NCBI GenBank assembly: GCA_001885315.1
Contig: MLPZ01000011.1
Location: forward strand, 1 to 64,000
Direction: 5' to 3'
Length of the DNA: 64,000 nt
From: Treponema sp. CETP13
Lineage (GTDB): Bacteria > Spirochaetota > Spirochaetia > Treponematales > Treponemataceae
The notes under the pieces are model-generated. The model saw only the letters and a list, made by a program, of their open reading frames with translations. It was not told the DNA's origin and made no database searches. Of this stretch, positions 5,874 to 63,488 are shown one piece after another; position 1 is the stretch's first letter, and each line of letters starts with the position of its first letter. Made by a program: the position numbers and the translations under genes.

Positions 5874-5956
5874 GCCGGCGTGGTGGAATGGTAGACACGA
5901 CAGATTCAAAATCTGTTGCACGCAAGTGTGTAAGGGTTCAAGTCCCTTGGCCGGTA
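5874..5956 (+). tRNA. tRNA-Leu (anticodon CAA)
   Basis: A cloverleaf with a long variable arm, as expected for leucine tRNA. The anticodon stem ACAGA/TCTGT closes a loop with CAA at 5907-5909, which reads UUG codons. The T arm is AAGGG-TTCAAGT-CCCTT. The discriminator base is A, and the 3' CCA is not encoded. The acceptor stem has G1-U72 as in E. coli tRNA-Leu, but position 7-66 appears as a G-G mismatch. It stands alone between the DUF1015 gene and xth. Confidence 0.95.
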
Positions 5957-46397: not shown

Positions 46398-46405
46398 TGT
46401 ACCGC

Positions 46406-47305
46406 CTAAACTTTTTCGTTAATTTTTTTGCCCATAATCCCTGTTGGTTTAAAAAGCAAAATAACAATTAAAATTGAAAACGAAATTGCATCAGCAAACT
46501 GTGATGACAAATATCCTTTAGTCATAGTCTCTGCAACACCAAGTATATAACCACCAATCATAGCACCAGGGATTGAACCGATTCCACCTAAAACAGCGGC
46601 AACAAATGCCTTCAATCCAGGCATCATACCCATTAGCGGATCTATTTGAGGATAAGATGAAGCATAAAGAACGCCACCAACTCCTGCCAAAACAGCACCT
46701 ATACCAAACGTAAACGCTATTGTCTTATCTACAGAAATTCCCATAAGTGAAGCCGCATTCATATCAAATGATACAGCACGCATAGCTTTCCCTATTTTAG
46801 AATGATTAACAATAAGATTTAACCCAACCATACAAACAATAGAAGTCAACAAAACTATTAACTGAATATTTGTGATTGAGAAAAATCCTAAATTAATACT
46901 TACCGTATTAATTACAGGGAATTGTTTTGGATTTGGTCCAATAAATGGAAGAACACGAGCTCCATTTTCCAAAATCAAAGAAACACCAATTGCAGTAATT
47001 AATGAGTTAATACGAGGTGCCCCTCGAAGTGGTTTGTATGCAAAACGTTCCATTAAAAGAGCTACAACAATACAGAATAAAATTGCTACAACAAAAGCAA
47101 CAAGCATTGCAACTAGATTTGTCCCAAACGAAGATAAAATAAAATAAGCTGCATAAGCGCCAACCATTAGTAAATCACCGTGAGCAAAGTTAAGTAACAA
47201 AACGATTCCGTAAACCATGGTATATCCTAAAGCTATTAGAGCATAAATACTTCCTAGCGATAATCCATTAATTATCTGTTGTATAAAAATACTTCCGTTT
47301 TCCAC
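46406..47305 (-). CDS. livH: branched-chain amino acid ABC transporter permease LivH
   Basis: A 299-residue permease with about eight membrane segments. It has QQIINGLSLGSIYALIALGYTMVYGI at the N-terminus (the LivH hallmark region) and SKIGKAMRAVSFDMNAASLMGI, the ATPase-contact loop. The start is GTG at 47305 with AAGGAGGG upstream. It follows livK after a terminator-like hairpin, which probably lowers transport-gene expression relative to the binding protein. Confidence 0.93.
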   Translation of the reverse strand: MENGSIFIQQIINGLSLGSIYALIALGYTMVYGIVLLLNFAHGDLLMVGAYAAYFILSSFGTNLVAMLVAFVVAILFCIVVALLMERFAYKPLRGAPRINSLITAIGVSLILENGARVLPFIGPNPKQFPVINTVSINLGFFSITNIQLIVLLTSIVCMVGLNLIVNHSKIGKAMRAVSFDMNAASLMGISVDKTIAFTFGIGAVLAGVGGVLYASSYPQIDPLMGMMPGLKAFVAAVLGGIGSIPGAMIGGYILGVAETMTKGYLSSQFADAISFSILIVILLFKPTGIMGKKINEKV

Positions 47306-47392
47306 AAGCCCTCCTTACTATATTTATTATTTAAAACTTAATTAAAAAATTAACCTATTATAGCATTTATTCTTATATCGTACAGTAGTAGA

Positions 47393-47428
47393 TAAAAAAA
47401 AAGCTTCACAAAATGTGAAGCTTTTTAC
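47393..47428 (-). terminator. partial terminator between livK and livH
   Basis: The minus strand has a stem AAAAAGCTTCACA/TGTGAAGCTTTTT (47426-47414 with 47410-47398) with a 3-nt loop and a T run. It lies between livK and livHMGF, with no separate strong promoter seen after it, so read-through is assumed. Confidence 0.78.
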
Positions 47429-47444
47429 AAAAAATAGATATTTT

Positions 47445-48602
47445 TTATGGATTTACAGTAGAGTTATAAACAGGTTTTAAAGAATCCCCATCTTTAACAA
47501 TCTGCATCATTACTGCTGATTTAACAGGATTTCTGTTTTCGTCAAAAGTAAAATGTCCAGTTACATAATCTGCATCAGTATCTTTTAAAGCATCTCGTAC
47601 AGCTGTTGCATCGGCAGAACCTGCAGCTTCGATAGAATCTTTTAGCATATAAACACAGTCATAAGAAAGTGCTGCAAAGGAAACTGGAGTTGTTCCAAAC
47701 TTCTCTTTATATGCTGCAACAAATTCAATAACTTTTGGGTCTGTCGAATCTGCAGCATAATGATTTGAATAATAACCATTAAGAACTTCATCACCAGCAT
47801 GTTCTTCTATTCCACCCCATCCGTCAGCACCAATAGCAGCAACTGTAATTCCTTGTGCTCGAAGTTGTTTTGCTATAAGAGCAACTGTTTGATAATAATC
47901 TGGAAGATAAACTACATCAGGATTAGATTGTTTAATCTTAGTAATTTGAGCGTTAAAATCTTTGTCACCAGTTGCATAACTTTCTGTTGCAACAACTTGT
48001 CCACCAGCTGCTTCAAAAGCTGAAGTAAAGTTTTCTTTTAAACCTAATGAATAATCATTTTGAACATCGTAAAGAATAGCAGCTTTCTTTTTGTTAAGAT
48101 TTTCTGCAGCAAATTTACCACCAACAGTTCCTTGAAAAGGATCTATAAAGCATGCTCTAAAAATGTAATTACCAGCTTCTGTAATATTTGTTTGTGTTGC
48201 TGCAGGAGCAAACAAAAGAACTTTTTGAGCTTGTGCAAGAGAAGTAATAGCAGCAGTACAGCCAGAAGTTAAAGATCCTACTATAATATCTACACCATCT
48301 TTTACTGTTAATTTTTTATAAACACTTACAGTTTTCTCTGGAGCACCTTCATCATCTTCAGCAAATAATTCAACTTGTTTTCCCATTATACCACCATTAG
48401 CATTAATTTCATCAATTGCTAATTCGATACCATTACGAGCTTCCAAGCCATAAACAGCAACAGCACCAGTATATGGTCCGATTGCTCCAATTTTAATAGT
48501 GTCAGCTTCCTCAGTTGTATCTTTTTTAGAACAAGATACTGTAGTAAATAACAATGCCAATACACTTACTACTACAAAAATTCTTGAAAATAATTTTCTC
48601 AT
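47445..48602 (-). CDS. livK: branched-chain amino acid ABC transporter substrate-binding lipoprotein
   Basis: A 385-residue type I periplasmic binding protein. The signal peptide ends in a lipobox-like TTVSC with Cys24; spirochaetal lipoboxes are often relaxed. The mature protein starts after a charged linker with TIKIGAIGPYTGAVAVYGLEA and has the LivK-type ELAIDEINANGGIMGK. Lgt (38585) would lipidate it. AGGAG precedes the ATG. Ligand specificity (Leu, Ile, Val or another amino acid) cannot be read from the sequence. Confidence 0.92.
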   Translation of the reverse strand: MRKLFSRIFVVVSVLALLFTTVSCSKKDTTEEADTIKIGAIGPYTGAVAVYGLEARNGIELAIDEINANGGIMGKQVELFAEDDEGAPEKTVSVYKKLTVKDGVDIIVGSLTSGCTAAITSLAQAQKVLLFAPAATQTNITEAGNYIFRACFIDPFQGTVGGKFAAENLNKKKAAILYDVQNDYSLGLKENFTSAFEAAGGQVVATESYATGDKDFNAQITKIKQSNPDVVYLPDYYQTVALIAKQLRAQGITVAAIGADGWGGIEEHAGDEVLNGYYSNHYAADSTDPKVIEFVAAYKEKFGTTPVSFAALSYDCVYMLKDSIEAAGSADATAVRDALKDTDADYVTGHFTFDENRNPVKSAVMMQIVKDGDSLKPVYNSTVNP

Positions 48603-48769: not shown

Positions 48770-48826
48770 AATTTAAAAAAAAATAAAGCTACCCAGCCTC
48801 GATATAATCGTTCGTGGGCAGCTTAA
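48770..48826 (-). terminator. terminator of the tuf-S10-spc-alpha operon
   Basis: The minus strand has a 10-bp stem AAGCTGCCCA/TGGGTAGCTT (48824-48815 with 48795-48786, one G-T pair), a loop with a short inner stem, then TTATTTTTTTTT. It is the only clear terminator seen downstream of the ribosomal genes. Confidence 0.9.
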
Positions 48827-48849: not shown

Positions 48850-49062
48850 TTATTCAGCTGATTCTTTTGCTGTTTCTGTTGCTACTGTAGCTTTTTTTGC
48901 ATTGTTTAATGCAGCATTGCATTTTTTGCAAACATTTACTTTTTTTCCATCAATTTCTACTTCATATAAAGCTTTGATGTTTTTTGTCTCACAACGAGCG
49001 CAAGTTCCGCGTCCATAATGAGGTAAATCTCTAATACCTTTTCCGCGATGGGCTTTTGACAT
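48850..49062 (-). CDS. small zinc-ribbon protein encoded at the end of the ribosomal operon
   Basis: A 70-residue basic protein with a zinc ribbon made by Cys21/Cys24 and Cys45/Cys48 and an Ala/Lys/Glu tail. The N-terminal KAHRGKGIRDLPHYGRG is Arg/Gly/His-rich, as in rRNA-binding proteins. I know no standard ribosomal protein with this sequence. GGAG precedes the ATG, nine bases after rplQ, and the operon terminator follows. The position and basic character suggest a ribosome-associated role, possibly limited to spirochaetes; that is inference. Confidence 0.85.
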   Translation of the reverse strand: MSKAHRGKGIRDLPHYGRGTCARCETKNIKALYEVEIDGKKVNVCKKCNAALNNAKKATVATETAKESAE

Positions 49063-49071
49063 AAAAAACTC

Positions 49072-49545
49072 CTATTTATCAGCTTCTGCTTTTTTGGCAT
49101 CCGCTTTTTCAGCTTTTGGAGCTGATTTTTTAGCGGTAGGTTTCTTAGCTGCAGTATCTTTTTTTGCCGGTGTTTCATCACTAGGTAATTTATAATCTAC
49201 AAGCTCAAGAATTGCCATATCTGCAGAATCACCTTGGCGAAACCCGAGTTTTAAAACACGTGTATAGCCACCATTACGTTCTGCCATTCTAGGTCCAATT
49301 TCAGTAAAAAGTTTTGCTAAAATTGCTTTATCCTGAATATATTTTGCAGCTTGTCGACGGTTATGTACCGAATCAACCTTACTGCGGGTAATAAGCTTTT
49401 CTGCAGCCTTACGTACTTCTTTAGCCTTAGCTTTTGTAGTCGTAATTCTTTCATATCTGAAAAGCGATGTAACCATATTGCGTGACATTGCACGACGATG
49501 TGCTGTTGTCCGCGAAAGGGCATTAAAACCTGATCTATGATTCAT
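49072..49545 (-). CDS. rplQ: 50S ribosomal protein L17
   Basis: A 157-residue protein. The first 118 residues match L17 ([19 protein letters not shown], then [27 protein letters not shown]). A low-complexity Lys/Ala/Pro tail of about 38 residues extends beyond the usual length and is probably disordered. The start lies inside the last codons of rpoA, with AAGGAAG upstream, so translation is coupled. L17 binds 23S rRNA near the exit tunnel. Confidence 0.96.
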
Positions 49546-50590
49546 TTGATTCTTCCTTCTGCGTGGTAATATTTACAGCATTTTTCAAATGACTGTAGTC
49601 TGTCATTCCAAGATTTAAATTCCATTCAAGGAGTTTTTCTTTTATTTCTAACAGACTTTTTTTACCAAAGTTTCTTGTTTTAGCAATATCTTCTTCTGTT
49701 TTTTTAGTTAACTGCCCAATTGTGCGAATGTTCGCATTTTTAAGACAATTAGAAGAACGAACAGAAAGTTCTAATTCCTCAACAGGAGTACTAAGAAGTT
49801 GACGAATTCTTTCATCACCCTCATTTAGACTATCATCCATGTCAACATCACTATCGTTAAAGTTTACAAAAATTGAAAAATGATCTTTAGCAATTTTTGC
49901 AGCTTCAACAAGCGCATCATCAGGACTTATACTACCATCAGTCCAAACTTCAATAATAAGTTTGTCATAATCATTTCGCTGTCCAACCCTACAAGGTTCA
50001 ATAGAATATTTTACCTTAGGGATAGGTGTAAAAATAGCATCCATTGGAATTGTACCAACAACTTCAATATAATGCTCATTTACTTCAGCAGGTACATATC
50101 CCCGTCCAAGATCAACTTGAACTTCGAATTCTAAGTGTGCTGCTTCCATCATTGTAAAAACATGCATATCTTTTGTCATTACTGACAATTGATCTCCACG
50201 GTCAAACATATCACTTGTAACTTTACCGGGACCTTTAAATTCAAATAGGAATGTATCCTGTTCAACATCATCGGGAAGCCGCAAGCGAATCTGTTTCATA
50301 CTATTCAAAACTTCTAATGCATCTTCAACTACATTCGGAATAGATTCGAATTCACTTGAGATAACATGAGGTACTTCGTCAGCATCATAGGATGTAATAC
50401 GTACAGATGTAATTGCATATCCTTGAATAGAAGATAACAAAACTCTTCGTAAAGTATTGCCAACAGTTGTACCAAAACCTGGCTCAAATGGATAAGCTGT
50501 AAACTTTCCATAATTTGGGCTAGTTTCTATATGCTCAAACGTAATCCCTTTGGGTTTCTTAAATCCTTTAAGCAGATTTTTGCGGGCCAT
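49535..50590 (-). CDS. rpoA: DNA-directed RNA polymerase subunit alpha
   Basis: A 351-residue subunit. The N-terminal assembly domain has [20 protein letters not shown]. The C-terminal domain has [23 protein letters not shown] and the helix-hairpin-helix [12 protein letters not shown] that binds UP elements, consistent with the A-tract before the rRNA promoter. AAGGAG sets the ATG at 50590; the longer frame to 50644 would run into a leader hairpin. It is slightly longer than usual because of an acidic linker ([14 protein letters not shown]). Confidence 0.96.
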
Positions 50591-50597
50591 CCAGACT

Positions 50598-50697
50598 CCT
50601 TTATAAAAGGTTAGCTCTTTCGAGCTGTCCATTGTAATTTTCAAAGCATTTACACCGAATACAAGTGAGATAGTCTCAACTTAACCGGTGCTTTGAA
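50598..50697 (-). promoter_or_regulatory. structured leader of rpoA in the place of rpsD
   Basis: In transcription order there is a long stem TTCAAAGCA/TGCTTTGAA (50697-50689 with 50648-50640) containing an inner hairpin; then AGCTC-GAAA-GAGCT (50626-50613), a stem closed by a GNRA tetraloop; then CCTTT-TAT-AAAGG (50610-50598), whose 3' arm includes the rpoA Shine-Dalgarno. In many bacteria rpsD occupies this position. Translational control of rpoA is inferred. Confidence 0.65.
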
Positions 50698-50728
50698 CCA
50701 TGTGAAAATTTGTTATAACAAATTTTTC

Positions 50729-51109
50729 CTACATTCGACGTGTTTTTCGTGGTCGACAACCATTGTGAGGAATTGGTGTTACATCAGAAATTGATCTAAC
50801 ATTTAATCCCATTGTTCCTAAAGAACGAATAGCTGCTTCCCGTCCTATTCCAGGACCTTTAACGAAAACATGTACATCACGTAAACCATAACTTTGAGCT
50901 TTTTGTACAGCAAGCTCTGCTACAGATTGAGCGGCAAATGGAGTTGATTTTTTAGCTCCACGAAAGCCCAGCCCACCAGATGATGCCCATGAAAGAGCAT
51001 TCCCTTTAAGATCTGTAATAGTTATGATTGTATTATTGAACGTTGCTTGAATATAAACGTTACCTTCGTAAACGCTTTTCTTCTCTTTACGTTTCTTAAC
51101 AGTTGCCAT
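50729..51109 (-). CDS. rpsK: 30S ribosomal protein S11
   Basis: A 126-residue protein of usual length. It contains [21 protein letters not shown] and [17 protein letters not shown], and ends [10 protein letters not shown] with the RPRKxRR motif of S11. It forms part of the 30S platform near the Shine-Dalgarno helix. It follows rpsM by 15 bases and is separated from rpoA by a structured gap of 138 bases. Confidence 0.97.
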
Positions 51110-51124
51110 AATTAGCTCCTCCGC

Positions 51125-51490
51125 TTATTTCTTTTTACCTGCAACGGTTTTTTTCTTACCTTTGCGAGTTCGAGCATTTGTAGATGTACGCTGTCCACGT
51201 ACAGGCAAACCTTTTCTATGTCGGAGACCACGATAGCAACCAATATCCATTAAACGTTTGATATTTAGACCAATCTCACTTCTGAGACGACCTTCTACTT
51301 TAAAGTCACTGTCTATTATGGAACGAAGACTTCCTATTTCCTCTTCTGTCAAATCGTTCATCATTCTATTAGGTTCGACTTTAGATTTTGTGCAAATATC
51401 ATTTGCAGCAGAACGACCGATACCATAAATATACGTCAATGCAATGTTGACATGTTTGTTAGGGAGATCAACTCCCGCAATTCGAGCCAT
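51125..51490 (-). CDS. rpsM: 30S ribosomal protein S13
   Basis: A 121-residue protein. It starts [25 protein letters not shown] and has the H2TH region and the C-terminal [22 protein letters not shown], both typical of S13. AAGGAG six bases upstream fixes the ATG at 51490; the frame to 51535 runs into rpmJ and is rejected. S13 sits in the 30S head and contacts the P-site tRNA. Confidence 0.97.
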
Positions 51491-51500
51491 CAGTTTCTCC

Positions 51501-51614
51501 TTAGCCTTGTCGTTGCTTATGCTTTGGGTTTTCACAAATGACGCGAACTACTCCGTGACGTTTGATAACCTTACATTTGTCGCAAATCGGCTTTACGCTG
51601 GTTCGTACTTTCAT
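51501..51614 (-). CDS. rpmJ: 50S ribosomal protein L36
   Basis: A short gene of 37 codons. The translation begins [20 protein letters not shown] and ends in NPKHKQRQG. The C-x2-C ... C-x4-H pattern binds one zinc, so it is the Zn-containing C+ form. CCGGAGGGATT precedes the ATG. It lies between secY and rpsM, the usual place in the spc/alpha junction. Confidence 0.96.
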
Positions 51615-51647
51615 TGTAATCCCTCCGGGATATTCAAAGTGTTAGAC

Positions 51648-51684
51648 ACCGAATTATAGCACATCGTAATGATGACAATTCGGT
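51648..51684 (-). promoter_or_regulatory. hairpin and extended -10 element between secY and rpmJ
   Basis: ACCGAATT (51648-51655) pairs with AATTCGGT (51677-51684), with a small inner stem. The minus strand also reads TGC-TATAAT (hexamer about 51659-51654) inside the right arm, an extended -10 promoter that could add transcription of rpmJ-rpsM-rpsK-rpoA-rplQ. Whether it acts as promoter, processing hairpin or both is undecided. Confidence 0.5.
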
Positions 51685-51737
51685 ATCCTCCTATTAAACA
51701 CTATTTTACAAACTTATTCTATAGCTTACACAAAAAA

Positions 51738-53057
51738 TTACAAATTGCGTGAGCGTAGACGACCTTTCTTAACAATTCCATCTTGATGATGCATTTTAAG
51801 AAGAGCCTCTACTTGACTCATAGTATCTAAATCAACACCAACCATAATCAAAAGTGAAGTTCCACCCATCAACATAGATATTGATTGAGGGAATCCAAAT
51901 AGATTCTGAATTATCGTAGGTATAATTGCAATTACTGCAAGATACAATGAACCTGGTAATATAAGCCTGTTCAATAGTTTTGTTAAATATTCTTCAGTCT
52001 TATCCGTTCTGATCCCAGGAATTGACCCGCCGTTTTCACGGACATTTTTTGCAATTTCAATAGGGTTAAGAGTAACCTGAGTATAAAAATAAGCAAAAAA
52101 TATAATCAAAAGAATATAGAAAAAGTTATACCAAAATCCCGTAGGGGTGAGAAATACAGCAAGTTTGCTTAACCAACGTACGTTGGAAGCCATACTATTT
52201 GCAAATTGTAACGGGAAAGTTAAAAACGATGATGCAAAAATTATCGGTATAACTCCTGAAGGATTAATTTTAAATGGAATGTAGGTGCTTTGTCCACCAT
52301 ACATTTTTCGGCCTATTATACGTTTTGCATAATGTACCGGAATTTTACGCTGTCCTTGTTGTTCATAAACAACAAGAGCAATTATTCCAATAAACATTAT
52401 TAAAACAACAATTACAAACACAACATTGATATCACCTGATCTAACTAATCGGATAAGCTCCCATATAGCAGCTGGTAGTCTACAGACAATACCAGCAAAA
52501 ATCAGGATTGAGATACCGTTTCCGATACCCTTAGAAGTAATTTGTTCTCCAAGCCATACTGTCGCCATAGTTCCAGTAGTAACTGTAAGTATAGCAATTA
52601 AACGGAATATAATTCCATTTTCTATTATTATAGCATTAGGAATACTATAAGCATAAACTGTAACAGCATAAGATTGAATAAGACAAACAACTATCGTACC
52701 AACTCGTGTCCATGTTTGGACTCTTTTTTGACCTCCATCCTCTTGCGCTATTCGTTTAAGAGTAGGAAATATTATAAGAGCAAGTTGCATAATAATTTGC
52801 ATTGAAATGTATGGCATTACACCTAACATTAGAATTGAAAAATTTGAGAACGCGCCACCGGCAAAAAAGTCCATATAATCTACGAACGCATTTCCCTGTG
52901 TCATCGAATCAAAATAAGATGTCAGTGCTTCAGGATTAATTCCCGGAATCGGAATAACCGATCCCAAACGAACTATTGCGAGGATAAGCAAAGTAAACGT
53001 TAGTCGCTCACGCAACTCTTTTACTTTAAACATATTAGAAATTGGATTATTTGCCAT
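51738..53057 (-). CDS. secY: preprotein translocase subunit SecY
   Basis: A 439-residue ten-helix channel protein of the Sec translocon. It begins with FKVKELRERLTFTLLILAIVRLGSVIPIPGIN, contains KGIGNGISILIFAGI and the cytoplasmic loop RKIPVHYAKRIIGRKMYGGQ, and ends in QVEALLKMHHQDGIVKKGRLR. The length is usual. It follows rplO in the spc cluster; adenylate kinase and map, often next in other bacteria, are absent. Confidence 0.97.
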   Translation of the reverse strand: MANNPISNMFKVKELRERLTFTLLILAIVRLGSVIPIPGINPEALTSYFDSMTQGNAFVDYMDFFAGGAFSNFSILMLGVMPYISMQIIMQLALIIFPTLKRIAQEDGGQKRVQTWTRVGTIVVCLIQSYAVTVYAYSIPNAIIIENGIIFRLIAILTVTTGTMATVWLGEQITSKGIGNGISILIFAGIVCRLPAAIWELIRLVRSGDINVVFVIVVLIMFIGIIALVVYEQQGQRKIPVHYAKRIIGRKMYGGQSTYIPFKINPSGVIPIIFASSFLTFPLQFANSMASNVRWLSKLAVFLTPTGFWYNFFYILLIIFFAYFYTQVTLNPIEIAKNVRENGGSIPGIRTDKTEEYLTKLLNRLILPGSLYLAVIAIIPTIIQNLFGFPQSISMLMGGTSLLIMVGVDLDTMSQVEALLKMHHQDGIVKKGRLRSRNL

Positions 53058-53078
53058 TTTTTTAATTCCCCACGTCCT

Positions 53079-53534
53079 TTATTCTTCTGATTTGACAACT
53101 ACAGAGCCGCCAACTTTTTCAATTTTAGCTTTAGCAGAAGCTGATACTTTAGCAACATCAACAGTGACCTTTTTTGTAAGCTCACCATCTCCAAGGACTT
53201 TTACCAACATTCCACTTTTTTTAACTAAACCTTTTGCAAGCAAAGATTCTTCATTTACTGTTTCACCAGCAGCATATTTTGATTCAATATCACGAATATT
53301 AATAACTTCATATTCTTTTTTAAAGTGATAGTTAGAAAAACCTTTACGAGCGATTCTTCGATATAAAGGCATCTGTCCACCTTCAAAACCTACATAGGTT
53401 TTTCCACCTGAACGGGACTGTTGTCCTTTATTACCTTTACCTGAAGTTTTACCATGACCAGAGGAAGAACCACGGCCAACGATTGTTTTCTTTTTATTTG
53501 CACCTTCTGGTGCGTTAAGAATTAATTCTGCCAT
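53079..53534 (-). CDS. rplO: 50S ribosomal protein L15
   Basis: A 151-residue protein. The N-terminal Gly-rich extension GRGSSSGHGKTSGKGNKGQQ and GFEGGQMPLYRRI are L15 hallmarks. L15 organises 23S rRNA in the large-subunit core and joins late in assembly. The start codon overlaps the rpmD stop by one base (TAATG), so translation is coupled. Confidence 0.97.
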   Translation of the reverse strand: MAELILNAPEGANKKKTIVGRGSSSGHGKTSGKGNKGQQSRSGGKTYVGFEGGQMPLYRRIARKGFSNYHFKKEYEVINIRDIESKYAAGETVNEESLLAKGLVKKSGMLVKVLGDGELTKKVTVDVAKVSASAKAKIEKVGGSVVVKSEE

Positions 53535-53731
53535 TAGTTCAGCTCCTCAACTTTAACCATGTGAGCTACGTTTGCAACCATACCAAGAACTGCAGGTGTT
53601 GCATCATGCTCTACACTAGAGTCAATCTTTTTGAGCCCTAAACAACGTACAGTGGCACGTTTGTTAGGTTTTTGTCCAATCGTACTCTTTTTAAGAGTAA
53701 TCTTGATTTTCTTTGTCTTAGCTTTCGCCAT
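53534..53731 (-). CDS. rpmD: 50S ribosomal protein L30
   Basis: A 65-residue protein with the L30 signature KKSTIGQKPNKRATVRCLGL and the C-terminal VRHMVKVEE-like segment VAHMVKVEELN. It has the usual bacterial short form, starting MAKAKTKKIKITL. It lies three bases after rpsE. Some spirochaetes and many intracellular bacteria have lost L30, so its presence is informative. Confidence 0.96.
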   Translation of the reverse strand: MAKAKTKKIKITLKKSTIGQKPNKRATVRCLGLKKIDSSVEHDATPAVLGMVANVAHMVKVEELN

Positions 53732-53734
53732 CTG

Positions 53735-54241
53735 TTAACCCCACAATTCGTTCAGAGTTTTACCTCTGTTTTTTGCTACCGTAGGTGCATCCATAAGGTT
53801 ACCTAAAGCTTCAAAAGTTGCTCGGACAACGTTTACAGATGTGTTAGATCCTAAAGATTTAGACATAATGTCTGTAAACCCAGCAGCTTCGAGAACTGCA
53901 CGTACAGCGCCACCAGCGATAATACCAGTACCTGAACAAGCAGGTTTTAATAAAACAGAAGAACCTTTATATACAGCTTGAATCTCATGAGGTAAAGTAC
54001 CATGTTTTATTGGTACTGTTTTCAAATTGCGTTTAGCTTTATCAATGCTCTTTCTGATTGCTTCAGATACATCATTTGCTTTACCAAATCCGAACCCAAC
54101 TCTACCTTTTCCATCACCAACAACAGTCAAAGCAGAAAATGAAAAACGGCGTCCACCTTTTACGACTTTTGAAGTACGATTAAGTTTAACCAATTTTTCA
54201 GCAAATTCTTTGGGCTCTCTATCGTGTCTTTTGCGTTCCAT
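53735..54241 (-). CDS. rpsE: 30S ribosomal protein S5
   Basis: A 168-residue protein with the double-stranded RNA-binding type N-domain ([20 protein letters not shown]) and [20 protein letters not shown]. The C-terminal [24 protein letters not shown] is typical. It contributes to decoding accuracy with S4. The conserved GGRRF region where spectinomycin-resistance changes occur appears wild-type in form. Confidence 0.97.
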
Positions 54242-54249
54242 TGAGTCTC

Positions 54250-54612
54250 CTAGAATATGATGCCGGCACTACGAGTACCAGCTGCAAGAGCTGCCACTAC
54301 ACCATGGTAGAGATAGCCATTACGGTCGAAAACTACAGTTGTAATTTTCTTTTCTTTAAGACGGGCACCCAAAGCTTCACCAAGTTTCGTAGCACCTTCG
54401 ACATTTGGTTTTAAGCCTACAAATTCTTTTTCCAAAGTGGAAATAGAAACAAGTGTTTTCCCTGCATCGTCGTCAATAACTTGAACAGACAAATTCTTAT
54501 TACTACGTGTCACAGTCATACGGGGACGGGTAGCATTTCCATGCAGGTGTTTGCGGATATGAACCTTTCTCTTAAGCCGCTTTCTGTCTTTTTCATTAAG
54601 TTTTTTAAACAT
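54250..54612 (-). CDS. rplR: 50S ribosomal protein L18
   Basis: A 120-residue protein: basic N-terminus [16 protein letters not shown], then [20 protein letters not shown] and the C-terminal [27 protein letters not shown]18 binds 5S rRNA with L5. It is in the usual rplF-rplR-rpsE order, with 12 bases to rplF. Confidence 0.97.
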
Positions 54613-54624
54613 ACAAACCTACCC

Positions 54625-55164
54625 TTATTTAACCCCGGATTTACCGACTTTCCGTTTAATTGTCTCAGTTTCGTATCGCACACCCTTACCTTTATAAGGT
54701 TCAGGTTTTCTAAGCTTACGAATCTGAGCCGCATATTCACCTACACGCTGTTTATCAATACCGGCAATAGTTATTTTACCTTGATTGTCAGCAGTAACAG
54801 TTAATCCTTCTGGAATAACAGCAACGTAGTCGGAAGAATATCCAAGATTCAAGACAAGTAAATTACCTTGAACCTCAGCACGATAACCAACACCATTAAT
54901 AATGAGGCTTTTTGAAAAACCAGTTGAAACACCGATTACCATATTGTTAATTAAACTTCTATATAAACCATGGGCAGCACTTGCAGCCTTAGATTCATTA
55001 GAAGGACTAACTAAAACTTCATTATCTTTTACTTCAATTTTTACAAGATTACTATAATCTTGTGTAAGTTTACCTTTAGGTCCTTCAACAGTAATTACAG
55101 AAGGAGCTATTGATACCTTGACACCTGCAAGTACAGGAACAGGAACTTTACCAATTCTTGACAT
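54625..55164 (-). CDS. rplF: 50S ribosomal protein L6
   Basis: A 179-residue protein with two related alpha/beta domains. It starts [19 protein letters not shown] and has the C-terminal signature [22 protein letters not shown]. It lies at the base of the stalk near the sarcin-ricin loop. Spacing to rpsH is nine bases. Confidence 0.97.
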
Positions 55165-55173
55165 AAATTCCTC

Positions 55174-55575
55174 CTACCAGACTTTACAAAGTATTTCACC
55201 GCCAACCATTAAATCTCTAGCCTTACGACCGGTTGTTACACCTTGAGAAGTTGAAACGATAACAGTACCATACCCGTTATAAACACGTGGCATGTCTTTA
55301 TAGCTAGAGTAAACACGACGACCTGGTGTAGAAACCTTTTCGATTCCATGCATAACAGGTGCATTTACTTCATCATATTTAAGGAAAACACGAATAATTG
55401 ATTTATCATTTTCGTCATTTACCTTTTTGAAGTTCTTTATATAACCTTCAATTTTCAGAATTTTCACGATTTCCAGTTTTAGTTTGGAAGTAGGAACGTC
55501 AACCTTTTCGTGGCGGGCAATAGCCGCATTCCGAACCTTTGTAAGCATATCTGCGATAGGATCTGAAACGCTCAT
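55174..55575 (-). CDS. rpsH: 30S ribosomal protein S8
   Basis: A 133-residue protein: N-terminal [13 protein letters not shown], the middle [20 protein letters not shown], and the C-terminal [16 protein letters not shown] with the family GxxT/S-DxxARxxxxGGEIL-like end. S8 is an early 30S assembly protein and in E. coli the spc-operon repressor that binds near rplE; no obvious S8-site mimic was found here. Confidence 0.97.
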
Positions 55576-55588
55576 TCTTAACTCCTAA

Positions 55589-55774
55589 CTACCAACTGGA
55601 TTTTGTAACGCCTGGAATCAGGCCTTCACTAGCATATTTACGAAAACAAACACGACACATTTTGTATTTGCTTAAATATCCACGGGGACGACCGCAAACC
55701 TCACAGCGATTCACTTTACGTGTGCTGTATTTAGGTGTACGTTTCGCTTTAATAATCATTGATTTTTTAGCCAT
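55589..55774 (-). CDS. rpsN: 30S ribosomal protein S14, type Z
   Basis: The 61-residue zinc-binding form of S14. [20 protein letters not shown] gives the C-x2-C-x12-C-x2-C zinc site. It replaces the longer zinc-free S14. It is located between rplE and rpsH as in other bacteria with the spc arrangement. Confidence 0.97.
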
Positions 55775-55785
55775 GATATCCTCTT

Positions 55786-56337
55786 TTACTTCCTGAAGGG
55801 CATTCCGAACTTAGAAAGTAAAACACGAGCATCATTATCAGTTTTTGCACTTGTAACAATGTTTACATTCATACCTGCAACTTTTTCGATTTTATCAAAA
55901 TCAATTTCAGGGAATATAATTTGTTCTACTATACCAAGGGAATAGTTTCCGCGACCATCAAACCCGTTAGGTTTAATACCACGAAAATCCTTTACACGAG
56001 GTAATGCAACATTTATAAGACGATCCAAAAATTCATACATTCTTGCTCCTCTTAAAGTTACCATTACACCAATTTCATTTCCTTCACGTAGTTTGAAGTT
56101 CGCTATACTCTTTCGAGCCCTTGTTTTCACAGCATGCTGACCTGTAATTGCTGTTAGGTCAGAAACTGCGGCATCAAGAAGTTTCTTGTTTGCGAGTGCT
56201 TCACCCACGCCCATGTTTACCACAATTTTTTTTATTTCTGGTATCTGCATGGCGGATTTATAACCGAGCTCTTTAAAAAGCTCGGGGGCGATAGTGTCTT
56301 TATAGACTTTCTTAAGCCGGGGTACGTAATTATCCAT
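55786..56337 (-). CDS. rplE: 50S ribosomal protein L5
   Basis: A 183-residue protein starting [20 protein letters not shown], with [41 protein letters not shown] and [23 protein letters not shown]. It binds 5S rRNA. The ATG at 56337 overlaps the rplX stop (TAATG); the frame to 56355 lies within rplX and is rejected. Confidence 0.97.
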
Positions 56338-56651
56338 TACAGAGTGTCTCCACATTTACGGCATACACGAATTTTCTTGTCACCGTCAATTTTGTATCCA
56401 ACTTTAGTAGGGCCGCATTTTTTACATACGAGAGCTACATTTGAAATATGCAAAGGAGCTTCAATCTCGGCGATACCACCACGATCTTGCTCACTTTGTT
56501 TTTTCATTGCTTTTTTAGCAAGGTTACAACCAGAAACTATAACACGATCTTTCTTTCGATCTATACTAAGAATGTTTCCACGTTTACCTTTATCTTTTCC
56601 AGCAATGATTTCTACCAAATCGTCCTTACGGATCTTGAATTTTTTTTGCAT
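56337..56651 (-). CDS. rplX: 50S ribosomal protein L24
   Basis: A 104-residue protein: [22 protein letters not shown] is the KOW motif region of L24. The C-terminal [27 protein letters not shown] has two Cys pairs, a zinc-binding arrangement seen in many L24 proteins. L24 starts 50S assembly. It is 11 bases from rplN. Confidence 0.97.
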
Positions 56652-56662
56652 TCCAAATCTCC

Positions 56663-57031
56663 TTATAGAACTTCTGGCGCTAATGATACGATTTTCATAA
56701 AATCGTAATCACGGAGTTCTCGTGCAACTGGTCCAAAAATACGTTTACCTTTTGGAGTATTATTTGCATCAAGGATAACGCAAGCATTATCATCAAAACG
56801 AATATAGGTTCCATCTGGGCGACGATACTCTTTTGCAACGCGCACGATTACAGCCTTTTCGACTGCTCCTTTTTTAATTGTAGAAGTAGGGATTACATCC
56901 TTAACAGCTACCACAACAATATCACCAATACCGGCATAACGACGGTGTGAACCGCCAAGTACTTTAATACACTGAACGCGTTTAGCACCGGAGTTATCAG
57001 CAACATTCATTACAGTTTGCATCTGAATCAT
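56663..57031 (-). CDS. rplN: 50S ribosomal protein L14
   Basis: A 122-residue protein starting [20 protein letters not shown], with the [20 protein letters not shown] signature, [19 protein letters not shown] and [19 protein letters not shown]. It has the exact usual length. It forms an inter-subunit bridge and binds ribosome-silencing factor RsfS in other bacteria. Confidence 0.98.
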
Positions 57032-57045
57032 ACTATTCCTCCTAG

Positions 57046-57318
57046 CTATTTGGCCCGTTCAATAATTTCTGCAACTCGCCAGCATTTATCTTTGCTTAAC
57101 GGACGACATTCAACAATGCGTACTTTATCACCAATATGAGCATCATTTAGTTCATCATGAGCTTTATATTTTTTAGCACTCGTGATGTACTTTTTATAAA
57201 GCTTATGGAGTTTTCTTGTTGAAATTTGAACAACAACGGTTTTATCCATTTTATCACTTGTTACAAATCCAACAAATGTTCGCTTATTAGCTTTTTCCTG
57301 AACTGTCTGTTCTTTCAC
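57046..57318 (-). CDS. rpsQ: 30S ribosomal protein S17
   Basis: A 90-residue OB-fold protein: [20 protein letters not shown], then [32 protein letters not shown]. It binds 16S helices 7 and 11. It lies in the usual rplP-rpmC-rpsQ-rplN order. Confidence 0.97.
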
Positions 57319-57328
57319 GGGTCAGCTC

Positions 57329-57529
57329 CTACTTATCCTGTCCGGCAATTTCTTTTTGTCGAATAAGCGTATTCAGTTGTGCGATTTCTCGACGCATCTG
57401 ACGCTTTTGCATCGGATTATCTACATGTCCGACTACTATTTGGAATCGGAAATCCATATACTTTCTTTTTAGCTCATTCCGTTTAACAACGAGTTCGGAA
57501 TAAGACAATTCTGCATTTTTTTTAGCCAT
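57329..57529 (-). CDS. rpmC: 50S ribosomal protein L29
   Basis: A 66-residue helical hairpin: LSYSELVVKRNELKRKYMDFRFQ, then MQKRQMRREIAQLNTLIRQ. L29 sits by the tunnel exit with L23, where SRP and trigger factor dock. Ten bases separate it from rpsQ. Confidence 0.96.
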   Translation of the reverse strand: MAKKNAELSYSELVVKRNELKRKYMDFRFQIVVGHVDNPMQKRQMRREIAQLNTLIRQKEIAGQDK

Positions 57530-57542
57530 CTTATTTTTCTCC

Positions 57543-57962
57543 CTACTCTACGGAATTACTAAAAGCAACTTTCGTTTTAATTGGAAGTTTACTTCCAGCT
57601 AAACGAACTGCTTCTTCAGCTAATTCGCGATCTACACCGCCAATCTCGAAAAGAATTTGACCAGGTTTAATAACTGCAGCCCAGAACTCTGGAGCACCTT
57701 TACCTTTACCTTGACGTGTGTCTTGAGGTTTTTTGGTAATTGGCTTATCTGGGAAAACACGAATCCAAACCTGACCTTTACGGTTAATCTTACGGTTAAT
57801 AGCAACACGAGCTGCTTCAATTTGTCGTGCGGACAACCAAATTGGCTCAAGTGCTACTAAAGCAACATCACCAAAGTCTATATTACAAGATCTTGTTGCA
57901 TTACCTTTTATTGTACCACGTTGCACCTTTCGATGCATAACTCTTTTAGGACTTAATGGCAT
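57543..57962 (-). CDS. rplP: 50S ribosomal protein L16
   Basis: A 139-residue protein: [20 protein letters not shown], then [20 protein letters not shown] and [25 protein letters not shown]. It positions the A-site tRNA on the large subunit. The arginine in the [10 protein letters not shown] segment, a hydroxylation target in E. coli, is present. Confidence 0.97.
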
Positions 57963-57965
57963 TGC

Positions 57966-58724
57966 TTAACTCCTTTCAGATTTTGCACCGCGAGCGGAAT
58001 GATCGTTACGATTATTATTTCGTTTACCACCACGTTCGGGTCTATCACGACGATTTTTAAGAAGCTTTCCAGCATCTTCTTTTTGTTCGTGACCATAATT
58101 CATTCCATTGTAAATCCATACTTTAACACCGATCTTTCCGAATGTAGTATGAGCTTCAGTGAAACCATAATCAATGTCAGCTCGAAGAGTATGTAAAGGA
58201 ACACGTCCTTCTTTGTGCTCTTCAGCACGAGACATTTCAGCACCGCCTAAACGACCTGATAAATGAATCTTGACACCTTGAGCTCCAGCTTTCATTGCGT
58301 TACCGCATGACTGTTTTAAGGCTTTACGGAATGAACCGCGATTTAAAAGTTGACGTGCAACATTCTGAGCAATTAACTGAGCGTTAACTTCTGGACGTTT
58401 CACCTCTTTAATTTTAATCTGAACCTTTTTAGTCATTGTCTTTTGAATCTGGGAGCCAATCTTTTCAATATTAGCACCTTTTACACCAATGATTACACCA
58501 GGGCGAGCTGTATGAATAACGATTGTTACACGCTGAGGATGTCGAATAATTTCGATTTCAGCAATATCAGCATTTTTGCACTCCGGCAAATCCTGTACCA
58601 TTTTTCTGATGCGCAAATCTTCATGTAGCAAATCTGCATATTCACGAGGACCTGCATACCAGCGTGAAGACCAAGTCTTGTTTATTCCAAGACGTAGTCC
58701 TATAGGATTAACTTTCTGTCCCAC
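57966..58724 (-). CDS. rpsC: 30S ribosomal protein S3
   Basis: A 252-residue protein: [20 protein letters not shown], the KH domain with [17 protein letters not shown], and the C-domain KLHLSGRL-like [19 protein letters not shown]. The C-terminus has a basic disordered tail ([17 protein letters not shown]) about 30 residues longer than in E. coli. S3 lines the mRNA entry channel. Confidence 0.97.
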
Positions 58725-58725
58725 G

Positions 58726-59082
58726 TTATTCCCCCGCCTTTTCTGCTACTACGACAGTTATATGACTCATACGTTTAAGAAGCATATCAGCACGTCCGCG
58801 AGCACGGTACCATACACGTTTTAGTCGTGGACCTTCGTCTACACGAACTTCTTTTACGATTAACATATCTTCATCGAGCTTATTATTAGCATTCAGTGCA
58901 TTAGCAATAGCTGACTTCATAGTAGAACGAATTAGCTTTGCACCTTTTTGTGGCATGTTTTCTAAAACTGCCATTGCCTCTGAACAACCTTTCCTATTAA
59001 CAACCTTCGCTACAGCACGTGTTTTTGAAGGTGATGCAATAAGAAATTTTGTAGTGGCTTTATATCCGGTTTTTTCGGCCAT
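58726..59082 (-). CDS. rplV: 50S ribosomal protein L22
   Basis: A 118-residue protein: [20 protein letters not shown] and [26 protein letters not shown], ending in the [18 protein letters not shown] beta-hairpin region that reaches into the exit tunnel. AGGTGG is near the start; the ATG at 59082 gives better spacing than 59085 or a GTG at 59091. Confidence 0.96.
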
Positions 59083-59091
59083 CATATCCAC

Positions 59092-59373
59092 CTATCTCTT
59101 ACCAGCTTTGTTATCAGAACCAGCATGACCACGGAAATTACGAGTTGGTGAAAATTCACCTAACTTGTGACCAACGAGGTTTTCTGTTACATAAACAGGA
59201 ACCCAAGTTTTCCCGTTATACACAGAAATAGTATTTCCAACCATTTCAGGTATAATAGTCGAGCAGCGGGAATATGTTTTAATCATTTTCCGGTCTGCGG
59301 CCTTGTTCATTTCAATAACCTTTTTATAAAGACTCTTTTCTATAAAAGGGCCTTTTTTAACAGATCTTGACAC
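59092..59373 (-). CDS. rpsS: 30S ribosomal protein S19
   Basis: A 93-residue protein: [29 protein letters not shown]-like [20 protein letters not shown] and [17 protein letters not shown]. It is at the top of the 30S head with S13. The stop overlaps the region before rplV. Confidence 0.98.
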
Positions 59374-59387
59374 AATTGTCTCCTATG

Positions 59388-60218
59388 CTACTTCTTCTTT
59401 CGGCGAGTAACAATAAAATTGTTTGACACCTTTCTCTTAGAACGAGTCTTGTATCCACGACACGGTTGCCCCCAAGGAGTAACAGGATTACGTCCTTTTC
59501 CGGCACCTTCACCACCACCAAGTGGGTGATCAACAGGGTTCATAACCATACCACGAACGGTAGGACGAATTCCTAACCAACGTGAACGGCCAGCTTTACC
59601 AAGTTGTGCATTCATACGATCTTCATTACCAACAGTACCAACCGTAGCATAACATTTCTTATGCACTCGGCGAACCTCAGTTGAAGGAAGACGAATAGTT
59701 ACATAATCACCTTCTTTAGCAGCAACTAGAGCACTTGCTCCAGCTGATCGTACTAACTGTCCACCACGTCCAAGTGTCAATTCGATATTGTGCACAGTAA
59801 ACCCTACTGGAATTACTTCCAAAGGAAGTGCATTTCCAACTTCTGGAGATGCATTCTCGCCAGACAAAATCTTCTGTCCAACTTTAAGTCCTTTTGGAGC
59901 AATAATATAACGTTTTTCACCGTCAGCATAAAAAATCAAAGCAATATTGGCACTTCTATTTGGATCATATTCAATAGATCGAACTGTTCCTGGAATACCA
60001 TGTTTATCACGTTTGAAATCTATCTCACGATACTTTCTTTTATGGCCGCCACCCTGATGTCGAACTGAAATTCGTCCACCAGCGCCTCGACCGCCATGTG
60101 ATTTATGACCTTTAGTTAAACCTTTTTCTGGGTCGTTACCTTTTGTCAAATCATCCCGGCGCAGGTCTATTCGAGCACGTGTACCTGCTGTTACCGGCTT
60201 ATATACTTTAAGAGCCAT
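59388..60218 (-). CDS. rplB: 50S ribosomal protein L2
   Basis: A 276-residue protein of the usual length. [20 protein letters not shown] is the basic N-terminal extension; [21 protein letters not shown] and the C-terminal [20 protein letters not shown] contain the conserved His of L2 near the peptidyl transferase centre. The last segment [18 protein letters not shown] is typical. Confidence 0.98.
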
Positions 60219-60249
60219 TTCGGTTCTCCTTTTCTATTGCGGTCGCAGG

Positions 60250-60534
60250 CTAAACGCCTTCGAACATGCTAATTTTTTCGCCATCCACTAGTTTGACGAT
60301 TGCTTTTTTCCAACTGGAAGTTCTTCCGGAACGATAGCGAACCCGCTTCATTTTTCCTTTTACATTAGTAACAGTACACTTTTTAACTTTTACATCAAAA
60401 AGTTTTCGAACTGCTTCTTTTATATCTGTTTTAGTTGCATCAGGACGTACATTAAAAACGTACTTTCCTTCTTCACGCAATAAAGTCGCTTTCTCTGACA
60501 AAACAGGCTCAATAAGCACATCTTCATGTAACAT
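60250..60534 (-). CDS. rplW: 50S ribosomal protein L23
   Basis: A 94-residue protein: EPVLSEKATLLREEGKYVFNV, ATKTDIKEAVRKLFDVKVKK and KMKRVRYRSGRTSSWKKAIV. L23 is the docking site for trigger factor and SRP at the tunnel exit. It overlaps the rplD stop by one base (TAATG). Confidence 0.97.
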   Translation of the reverse strand: MLHEDVLIEPVLSEKATLLREEGKYVFNVRPDATKTDIKEAVRKLFDVKVKKCTVTNVKGKMKRVRYRSGRTSSWKKAIVKLVDGEKISMFEGV

Positions 60535-61166
60535 TATTTTACCTCCTTTTTATAAAAATCAGAAAGATTTTTTGCAGCGCCTTCAAGCATAATAACTTTT
60601 CGACCATAAAACAAATCATGTGCACGAAGTCTGTTATATGACAAGAAAGATACTTTTGCAAGATTTGCACCAGCACGTCTAATCATAGAATCATCATCTT
60701 TCAAAACAATAACAGTTCGTTCATCTTTAGCAAAATTATTTACAATTTTAACTAAATCTTTTGTCTTACCGCTTTCTACAGTAAAATCTTCAATAATTTT
60801 AAGATTGTCTTCTTGAGCTTTCATACTCAAAATAGACTTCATAGCTAATCTTTTAACTTTTTTAGGTATAGTATAGCTAAAATCTCTTGGTTTTGGTCCA
60901 AATATAACTCCACCGCCTCTTGTTATAGGTGATTTTTTATCACCACGGCGAGCACGACCTGTACCCTTTTGCTTATACGGCTTAGCATTGCTTCCATGTA
61001 CTTCAGAGCGATCTTTTGTACAAGCAGTACCAACACGTTTATTAGCTAATTCATTATTAATGGCATAATAAATAACGTCGTCATTGACCGGAAGCGCAAA
61101 AACGTTGTCATCAAGATCAATTGTCCGTAATTCTTTACCATCGACTGAATAGACTTTCTTTTCCAT
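60534..61166 (-). CDS. rplD: 50S ribosomal protein L4
   Basis: A 210-residue protein. The tunnel loop GSNAKPYKQKGTGRARRGDK and VIFGPKPRDFSYTIPKKVKRLA are L4 hallmarks. In E. coli L4 represses its own operon at the transcription and translation level; no copy of the E. coli S10 leader is evident here. It is 14 bases downstream of rplC. Confidence 0.97.
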   Translation of the reverse strand: MEKKVYSVDGKELRTIDLDDNVFALPVNDDVIYYAINNELANKRVGTACTKDRSEVHGSNAKPYKQKGTGRARRGDKKSPITRGGGVIFGPKPRDFSYTIPKKVKRLAMKSILSMKAQEDNLKIIEDFTVESGKTKDLVKIVNNFAKDERTVIVLKDDDSMIRRAGANLAKVSFLSYNRLRAHDLFYGRKVIMLEGAAKNLSDFYKKEVK

Positions 61167-61180
61167 CTGCCTTCTCCGTC

Positions 61181-61807
61181 CTAGAATTCTTTTTTAGTCG
61201 CAGTCTTGACGATCAGCGTACAGTTTTTCTTCCCAGGCACAGACCCACGAACCATCACAACATTTAACTCAGGATCCACTTTAACAACTTTAAGATTTTG
61301 AACTGTTACACGAGCATTACCCATATGACCAGCCATCTTAATATTTTTAAAGCTTCTTCCAGGTGAAGTACACATACCTGTACCACCAGCTACACGGTGA
61401 AATTTTGAACCATGTCCAGCAGGTCCACCATGGAAACCCCAACGTTTCATTACACCTTGATACCCTCTACCTTTAGAAGTTGCAGTCACGTCAAGATAAC
61501 GAATGCCATTAAACAAATCAACGCCAATTTCATCACCAACAGCAACTTCACCTTCAAAGTTACGGAATTCTTTCAAATTTTTCTTAGGTGTAATACCTTC
61601 CGAGAATTGTCCAGCATACGGCTTAGTAACTTTAGACTCTTTAACATCACCAAGTCCAAGCACAACAGCACTGTAACCAAATTTTTTCTCATCTTTAAGA
61701 GCCACAACCGTGTTAGGTTCGACGTGGATCACGGTTACCGGTGTAAGATTTCCGTCTTCGTCAAAAACCTGGGTCATGCCCACTTTTTTTGCAATCAGAC
61801 CTTTCAT
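61181..61807 (-). CDS. rplC: 50S ribosomal protein L3
   Basis: A 208-residue protein: MKGLIAKKVGMTQVFDEDGN, the GKGYQGVMKRWGF-like segment GRGYQGVMKRWGFHGGPAGH, and MAGHMGNARVTVQNLKVV. It is one of two proteins that nucleate 50S assembly. An unusually GC-rich hairpin precedes it, 61 bases upstream of the ATG. Confidence 0.97.
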   Translation of the reverse strand: MKGLIAKKVGMTQVFDEDGNLTPVTVIHVEPNTVVALKDEKKFGYSAVVLGLGDVKESKVTKPYAGQFSEGITPKKNLKEFRNFEGEVAVGDEIGVDLFNGIRYLDVTATSKGRGYQGVMKRWGFHGGPAGHGSKFHRVAGGTGMCTSPGRSFKNIKMAGHMGNARVTVQNLKVVKVDPELNVVMVRGSVPGKKNCTLIVKTATKKEF

Positions 61808-61867
61808 TCTGATATTCTCCTTAAGAAGAACGTATTAACAATCAAATATTAATACATCTTCAATTAT

Positions 61868-61902
61868 CGGCCGCCATCCCCTGATCCTGGGGACCGGTAC
61901 CG
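61868..61902 (-). promoter_or_regulatory. GC-rich RNA hairpin between rpsJ and rplC
   Basis: The minus strand has a core stem GTCCCC/GGGGAT (61894-61889 with 6181-76 of the same block, i.e. 61881-61876) with a 7-nt loop. Flanking CCG/CGG pairs extend it with small bulges up to palindromes CGGTACCG and CGGCCG. The GC content stands out in an AT-rich region. It has no T tail, so it is not a standard terminator; a ribosomal-protein binding site or processing signal is inferred. Confidence 0.6.
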
Positions 61903-61922
61903 TTTAATAACAATAATAAAAC

Positions 61923-62231
61923 TTATTGTTTAATCTCAACATCTACGCCAGCAGGCAATTCAAGCTTCATCAGTGAATCCATAACATCAGCTGACGGCTC
62001 AATAATATCAATAAGGCGTTTATGTGTACGCATTTCAAACTGCTCACGTGATTTTTTATTAACGTGAGGTGAACGCAATACAGTCACCTTTTCAATTCTT
62101 GTAGGAAGAGGTATAGGTCCTAAAACCTTAGCACCTGCTTTCTGCACTGTCTGCACGATGGCTTTAGCACTCTGATCGATCAACTCTACGTCAAACGCAC
62201 GAAGTCTGACACGAATCTTTTCAGTAGCCAT
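61923..62231 (-). CDS. rpsJ: 30S ribosomal protein S10 (NusE)
   Basis: A 102-residue protein: [64 protein letters not shown] precedes the ATG at 62231; the longer frame to 62285 is rejected because its first residues are encoded by the leader. Besides its ribosomal role, S10 pairs with NusB to bind boxA RNA. The tuf-rpsJ leader itself holds a boxA-like element. Confidence 0.98.
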
Positions 62232-62297
62232 TTTTCCTCCAAAGGAAACAAAGCGGGTTTTCGCAAAGCGCAAACCCGCTCTCATTCTTAATCTAAT

Positions 62298-63488
62298 TTA
62301 TTCGATAACTTCGGTAACCTGACCAGAAGCAATTGTTCGTCCACCCTCTCGGATAGCAAGTTTTAATCCCTGCTCCATAGCTACAGGGTGAATTAATTCT
62401 CCGATGATTTTTGTGTTATCACCAGGCTTAACCATATCTACTCCCTCAGGAAGTTCTACAGTACCTGTAATATCTGTAGTTCTAAAATAAAACTGTGGTC
62501 GATATCCAGTAAAGAATGGACTATGTCGTCCACCTTCATCTTTAGACAATACATAAACCTGCGCAGTAAATTTTGTATGAGGAGTAATTGTTCCTGGATG
62601 AGCCAAAACTTGACCACGAACAACGTCTTTTTTCTCAATACCACGTAGAAGAACACCTACATTATCACCAGCTTCTCCTTGTTCCAATGTTTTTTGGAAC
62701 ATTTCAATACCAGTAACAACAGTTTTTTGAGTTGGTTCAATACCAATAATCTCAACTTCTTCAGACATTTTAACAACACCACGTTCAACACGACCTGTTA
62801 CAACCGTACCACGTCCTGAAATTGTGAAAACATCTTCGATAGGCATTAAGAATGGTTTATCAAGATCACGAACAGGATCATCAAAATAATTATCCATAGT
62901 GTCAAGAAGTTCATCAATACAAGCAGTATCTTCTGAAGAAGCTCCTTCTTGAAGTGCTTTAAAAGCAGAACCTTTAACTATTGGAGTTGCGTCACGATCA
63001 TATCCATATTCTTCAAGAACATCACGTACTTCTTCTTCAACAAGCTCAACAAGTTCTTCATCATCTACTAAATCAATTTTGTTTAAGAAAACGATAACTT
63101 TCTTAACACCAACCTGATTTGCAAGAAGTAAGTGTTCTCTAGTCTGAGGCATTACAGAATCAGGTGCTGAAACTACAAGTATAGCTCCATCCATTTGTGC
63201 TGCACCAGTAATCATGTTTTTAACATAGTCAGCATGACCAGGACAGTCAATATGAGCGTAATGACGCTTAGCTGTCTGATATTCAAGATGACGTGTGTTA
63301 ATTGTAATACCACGTTCTTTTTCTTCAGGAGCGCTATCAATTTCATCATACTTCAGCAATTTATCGCCGAATGCTTTTGCACAGTGTGCTGTGATAGCCG
63401 CTGAAAGAGTTGTTTTACCATGGTCAACGTGACCAATAGTACCAACGTTCATGTGCGGTTTTGTTCTTACGAACTTTTCCTTTGCCAT
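62298..63488 (-). CDS. tuf: elongation factor Tu
   Basis: A 396-residue GTPase that delivers aminoacyl-tRNA. GHVDHGKTT (G1), the [12 protein letters not shown] switch [13 protein letters not shown] (G3) and [11 protein letters not shown] (G4) are all present. The C-terminal domains have the usual [13 protein letters not shown] and [13 protein letters not shown]. It is the first gene of the long ribosomal operon; rpsL, rpsG and fusA, which often precede tuf, are absent. AGGAGG supports the start. Confidence 0.98.

Follow-up and report, generated by a model that had tools for sequence, protein, structure and literature searches.

The ribosomal proteins bS22, bL37 and bL38 are small and lineage-restricted, were missed by annotation, and have been seen in structures. 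Two of them, bS22 and bL38, are reported for the Borrelia ribosome in the available part of the paper describing its structure (PMC10618245), which does not report the protein described here; its main text, as far as accessible, mentions neither bb0503 nor Treponema. The present protein, of 70 residues, resembles these three in being small, overlooked by annotation and confined to one lineage. It differs in being known from sequence and seen in no solved ribosome, and also in being zinc-binding by motif and absent from a Borrelia-like family of spirochaetes. The occurrence of C+ and C- forms is a habit of zinc ribosomal proteins. A literature search on spirochaete ribosomes and lineage-specific ribosomal proteins found no paper on a treponemal ribosome. 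In the PDB, the closest L17 comes from entry 8fmw, which we take to be the Borrelia ribosome, and therefore no treponemal ribosome seems to have been solved.

The gene and its operon

The window (the whole stretch of DNA analysed, 64,000 nucleotides from Treponema sp. CETP13) carries the gene on the minus strand at 48850..49062, with an ATG start and the translation MSKAHRGKGIRDLPHYGRGTCARCETKNIKALYEVEIDGKKVNVCKKCNAALNNAKKATVATETAKESAE. The protein has a mass of 7.6 kDa, a computed pI of 9.5 and two CxxC pairs, arranged as CxxC-x20-CxxC. Its start codon lies 9 nt downstream of the stop codon of rplQ (49072..49545, minus strand; identified as bL17 by Pfam and NCBIfam), and it has its own Shine-Dalgarno sequence, AGGAG, read from the sequence at 49069..49073 (minus strand), which overlaps that stop codon. 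The basic 70-residue protein with two Cys pairs that the original prediction placed directly after L17 is thus present as described.

Upstream, and on the same strand, the region 49072..63488 holds tuf and the S10-spc-alpha genes, in the order tuf, rpsJ, rplC, rplD, rplW, rplB, rpsS, rplV, rpsC, rplP, rpmC, rpsQ, rplN, rplX, rplE, rpsN, rpsH, rplF, rplR, rpsE, rpmD, rplO, secY, rpmJ, rpsM, rpsK, rpoA and rplQ. These names were read from the ORF translations, with rplQ and rplX also checked by profile. There is no rpsD between rpsK and rpoA, unlike in E. coli; the gap there (50645-50728) is only 84 nt.

The operon ends 3' of the 70-residue protein gene at an intrinsic terminator (48775..48824, minus strand), with a 10-bp stem (48786-48824) followed by a T-run (48775-48783). 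The hairpin has a centroid energy of -17.7 kcal/mol, a minimum of -18.2 kcal/mol and a z-score of -2.77, and only 1 of 200 shuffled controls was as good. A simple hairpin scan missed it because the loop is long; the same scan found another strong hairpin at 47398-47426. The terminator expected behind the gene is therefore real, but the claim that it is the only strong one was too strict.

Codon use places the gene in the top 2.9% of 314 background genes (CAI 0.746). With amino-acid composition fixed, the bias has p = 0.055, which is weak and suggestive, and we have rejected it as proof of high expression.

Distribution

A tblastn search of 296 genomes sampled from the phylum matched 81 of them at E <= 0.01; the match in G046 proved to be the tail of uL24. 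A profile built from 35 diverse members recovers the same remaining 80, with a clean gap between the worst member (2.4e-23) and the best non-member (8e-5). All 80 carriers belong to the class of the window, Spirochaetia, and no convincing relative was found outside it among the 296 genomes. Being a uL24 tail, the locus in G046 (L114) was left out when the family was counted. The presence of relatives in 80 of the 296 genomes, together with a median dN/dS of 0.12 over 614 pairs, which indicates purifying selection, establishes that the ORF is a real gene.

Within the class, 308 of 394 sampled genomes carry the family at E <= 1e-5. It is single-copy in all the listed genomes except one (G376, which has two); in short, the gene is basic, conserved and almost never duplicated. 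An exception is a family of small genomes (0.9-1.9 Mb), which we infer to be the Borreliaceae. None of its members listed in either genome sample has a relative, apart from chance-level profile matches in two (E 0.14 and 0.20). This absence counts against a ribosomal protein. The profile searches covered the phylum Spirochaetota; in addition, a scan of contigs from 84,980 species gave 498 confirmed relatives, and the best 80 of these all carry spirochaete names. As far as the 296 phylum and 394 class genomes reach, the possible restriction to spirochaetes raised in the original prediction narrows to a single class. A mobile origin was rejected: viral contigs gave 33 pattern matches, not one of them encoding a relative, and plasmids gave a single weak match (E 0.4) that is not one.

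Position of the gene in relatives

All 45 genomes of Treponematales that were checked (28 + 17) have the gene directly after rplQ. In the other orders of the class, rplQ is upstream in none of 22 genomes, 21 of them informative, since one locus (L126) has only 230 bases upstream. The original proposal that the gene always follows rplQ therefore holds for Treponematales and fails for the other orders. Of 133 distinct loci, 107 adjoin rplQ, a count that leans towards Treponematales because the best 80 of the 498 loci do. The median gap in these 107 is 14 nt; it is 40 nt or less in 100 of them, and in 8 the genes overlap or touch. A terminator lies within 150 nt downstream of the gene in 93 of the 107 loci (3.9 expected), and between rplQ and the gene in only one. 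In Treponematales, then, the S10-spc-alpha operon has this gene as its last cistron, and the two share a terminator.

Outside Treponematales, rplQ is often directly followed by a terminator-like hairpin, and the gene adjoins unrelated genes, judged by eye from sequence motifs to be Mur-ligase-like, YicC-like and DJ-1/CoaX-like. This non-ribosomal neighbourhood counts against a ribosomal protein. The gene stands alone in these orders and is nevertheless kept, so its conservation does not depend on its place in the operon. A neighbourhood with a DJ-1-like and/or a CoaX-like gene is repeated at three of these loci (L112, L113 and L128).

Protein sequence and predicted fold

The protein consists of a basic N-terminal arm (residues 1-20), a zinc module CxxC-x20-CxxC (residues 21-48), and a C-terminal helix with a variable tail. 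Six residues, K3, R6, G7, C21, K30 and K46, do not vary among 108 distinct sequences. Residues 1-10 have the lowest block entropy (0.52 bits) and residues 51-70 the highest, and the core carries a mean net charge of +7.8. The charge and the conserved arm are as expected for a small, basic, single-copy ribosomal protein with a conserved extension. All four Cys are kept in 103 of the 108 sequences, and the other five keep only the first. The T. pallidum form (pI 11.0), like the C- form of the small ribosomal protein bL28, keeps its first Cys in a CxxTG context.

The predicted model has a mean pLDDT of 73.6, with values of 52 for residues 1-10 and 83-90 for residues 21-60. It places a hairpin at residues 33-44 and a helix from residue 46, giving the order CxxC, β hairpin, CxxC at the helix start. 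The arm is the most conserved part of the protein but has the lowest pLDDT and is not predicted to fold by itself, as would be expected of a ribosomal protein tail inserted into rRNA.

Foldseek gave no match to the model at E <= 0.001 (best E 0.35), and the best Z in a second structural comparison was 3.7, with weak similarity to generic treble-clef fingers. These fingers (GATA, FYVE, LIM, ClpX ZBD) share with the model the CxxC, hairpin and CxxC at the helix start, but all the matches are weak (Z <= 3.7, Foldseek E >= 0.35). Some low-ranking matches are to ribosomal and pre-60S chains. Since the GATA, FYVE, LIM and ribosomal entries are tied, no conclusion is drawn from the fold matches or from families missing among them.

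Comparison with known families and with uL24

The protein scores below the cut-off of every Pfam and NCBIfam model, which eliminates an enzyme or other known family at that threshold. A PDB sequence search gave no significant match, and by sequence no relative has a solved structure. The statement that the protein matches no standard ribosomal protein therefore stands against both the curated families and the solved chains. bL28 (PF00830) was considered and rejected: hhalign gives it 0.2%, the genome has a genuine bL28 elsewhere (G000:C17), and PF00830 is absent both from the Pfam matches of the window protein and from the 25 families listed for the 35 members.

There is a weak resemblance to the tail of uL24. 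Both have CxxC-(about 17-20)-CxxC and a hairpin whose final strand is KKxRxC[KR]xC-like, and both occur in C+ and C- forms. The 70-residue protein differs in having no KOW domain, a longer spacing and a different N-terminal arm. Pfam L24 weakly matches 7 of the 35 members (best E 0.027). Membership of uL24 (PF17136) was rejected, at 14.9 bits against a cut-off of 27 and over the tail region only. With hhalign, comparison with uL24 from 30 loci gave 60.6% over 30 columns, with E 8.3e-5 for one pair; the controls gave 11.3% (uS14), 0.2% (bL28) and 0.3% (reversed uL24). Ten out-of-family profile matches were read, and three are uL24 tails (G001, G067 and G074), the others among the ten being unrelated zinc proteins or unassigned; G046 supplies a fourth uL24 tail. 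The zinc hairpin of the protein thus appears weakly similar to the uL24 tail.

The uL24 zinc site has been lost in several spirochaete lineages (loci L223, L257, L260, L262 and L263). All five genomes with a Cys-poor form of the 70-residue protein (G056, G246, G275, G287 and G292) have a zinc-free uL24. Three further lineages (G006, G250 and G256) have a zinc-free uL24 and a C+ form of the protein. The zinc site is retained in the remaining 32 distinct uL24 tails compared, that of the window's own uL24 (rplX, 56337-56651) among them. This pattern suggests a shared relaxation of zinc binding in the two proteins, on the basis of about three independent losses. The coupling would be one-way, because three lineages lost the uL24 site while the 70-residue protein kept its own.

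Published expression and abundance

At one locus, which we take to be that of T. pallidum Nichols, the order is L17 (at 218199), the gene (at 218717), then DnaK at about 219.9 kb. At another, presumably T. denticola ATCC 35405, the gene overlaps the end of rplQ. In the available part of a T. pallidum proteome paper, L17 is TP0213 and DnaK is TP0216 (PMC5015957); the gene between them is therefore TP0214. In the same part of that paper, TP0214 is an uncharacterised 7 kDa protein that stands first among the 50 most abundant by spectral counting, with an NSAF of 19.6 (L34 13.1, L17 9.4). A deeper proteome, also available in part, finds that TPANIC_0214 is not highly abundant (PMC10600179), which counts against a ribosomal protein. 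Production at the level of ribosomal proteins, as originally proposed, is thus supported by one of these partly available sources and not by the other.

In the accessible part of an RNA-seq comparison of rabbit and culture, TPANIC_0214 has a log2 change of 1.28; the authors' operon is 0188-0213, all 27 genes of which rise, those given ranging from 1.05 to 1.43 (PMC8525777). As far as this source extends, the value for TPANIC_0214 therefore falls within the range of the ribosomal operon. For T. denticola with P. intermedia, the array data in the part consulted of PMC3914990 give 2.22 for TDE0793, the conserved hypothetical after rplQ, 2.40 for rpoA and 2.20 for rplQ, with trends only in three other columns. 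Co-transcription with the ribosomal operon is supported by these data and by the anatomy of operon and terminator. The gene is encoded and expressed with ribosomal proteins in Treponematales, and not in the other orders.

Possible function

On the basis of these observations, we propose, with a probability of about 0.6, that the protein is a lineage-specific ribosomal protein of the class Spirochaetia, most likely an integral one whose synthesis keeps pace with that of the rest of the ribosomal proteins. The conserved, basic, single-copy gene ends the S10-spc-alpha operon in Treponematales and shares both its terminator and its expression changes. The invariant arm, MSKxHRGxGI, would thread into rRNA; the zinc module (CxxC, β hairpin, CxxC at the helix start) may cap the arm on the ribosome surface; the C-terminal tail, which is variable and rich in Ala and Glu, would face the solvent. 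The site could, as a guess, be near the tunnel side, by bL17 and uL24. The absence of the protein from the Borrelia structure counts against this proposal. A more ambitious version, which we regard as possible but on balance not the better bet, extends to the ribosomes of nearly all Spirochaetia other than the Borrelia-like family: they would contain a zinc ribosomal protein not yet described, with a hairpin derived from the uL24 tail and a gene that the common ancestor of Treponematales recruited to its alpha operon. On this view the protein would be among the most abundant of T. pallidum and missing from every solved ribosome.

The main rival is that the protein is associated with the ribosome and not integral to it, acting either in assembly or in hibernation through binding to pre-ribosomes or idle ribosomes. 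That the gene stands alone outside Treponematales fits such a role, as does its dispensability in some members of the class (86 of 394 genomes without a match), which is often seen with accessory factors, and so does the lack of high TPANIC_0214 abundance in what is available of the deeper proteome. We nevertheless consider it rather unlikely: the gene is transcribed within a structural operon and shares its terminator, TP0214 has the top NSAF in the accessible part of the other proteome, and the strongly conserved arm has the predicted look of a permanent rRNA tail.

The operon link might instead reflect rpoA, the protein being a small zinc-binding part of the transcription machinery, carried on RNA polymerase. 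Here rpoA and rplQ directly precede the gene, TDE0793 changes with rpoA in the data available, and zinc-ribbon transcription families are among the many weak Pfam matches; none of these matches reaches cut-off, however, the N-terminal arm resembles ribosomal protein tails, and loci outside Treponematales have no link to polymerase genes, which makes this reading improbable. TP0214 is also listed as an antimicrobial miniprotein candidate in the available part of a T. pallidum screen (PMC9200625), in keeping with its small size and cationic character, but we think such a function very improbable for a zinc-motif protein conserved in 308 of 394 class genomes, under purifying selection and, in the partly available expression data, co-expressed with ribosomal genes. 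The literature on TP0214 and TDE0793, where available, contains no proposal of a ribosomal role, and the TP0214 gene is not shown in the accessible part of PMC4403809, which deals with hypothetical proteins of T. pallidum.

If it is a ribosomal protein, the ribosomes of syphilis, oral and gut treponemes hold a component absent from the solved Borrelia ribosome, and the Borrelia structure would therefore be an incomplete model for treponemes. A function would then also be assigned to TP0214, which in print is uncharacterised, top in abundance in one partly available study and an antimicrobial candidate. The absence from Borrelia-like genomes, together with the zinc-free forms, would then provide a natural test of the gain and loss of small ribosomal proteins.

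Other features of the window

bL17 (49072-49545) has a Lys/Ala-rich C-terminal extension of ~40 residues. Many relatives of the 70-residue protein have an Ala/Glu/Pro-rich tail, and the neighbouring genes therefore encode opposite tails. Directly downstream, on the same strand, 43828-48602 was read by eye as encoding an ABC transporter for branched-chain amino acids, with its binding protein, two permeases and two ATPases, beyond which is a CBS/ACT-like protein at 43188-43826, also assigned by eye. The left edge of the window (1-270) falls within a minus-strand 16S rRNA gene (5' end, model 1-263), and there is a tRNA at 5874-5956.
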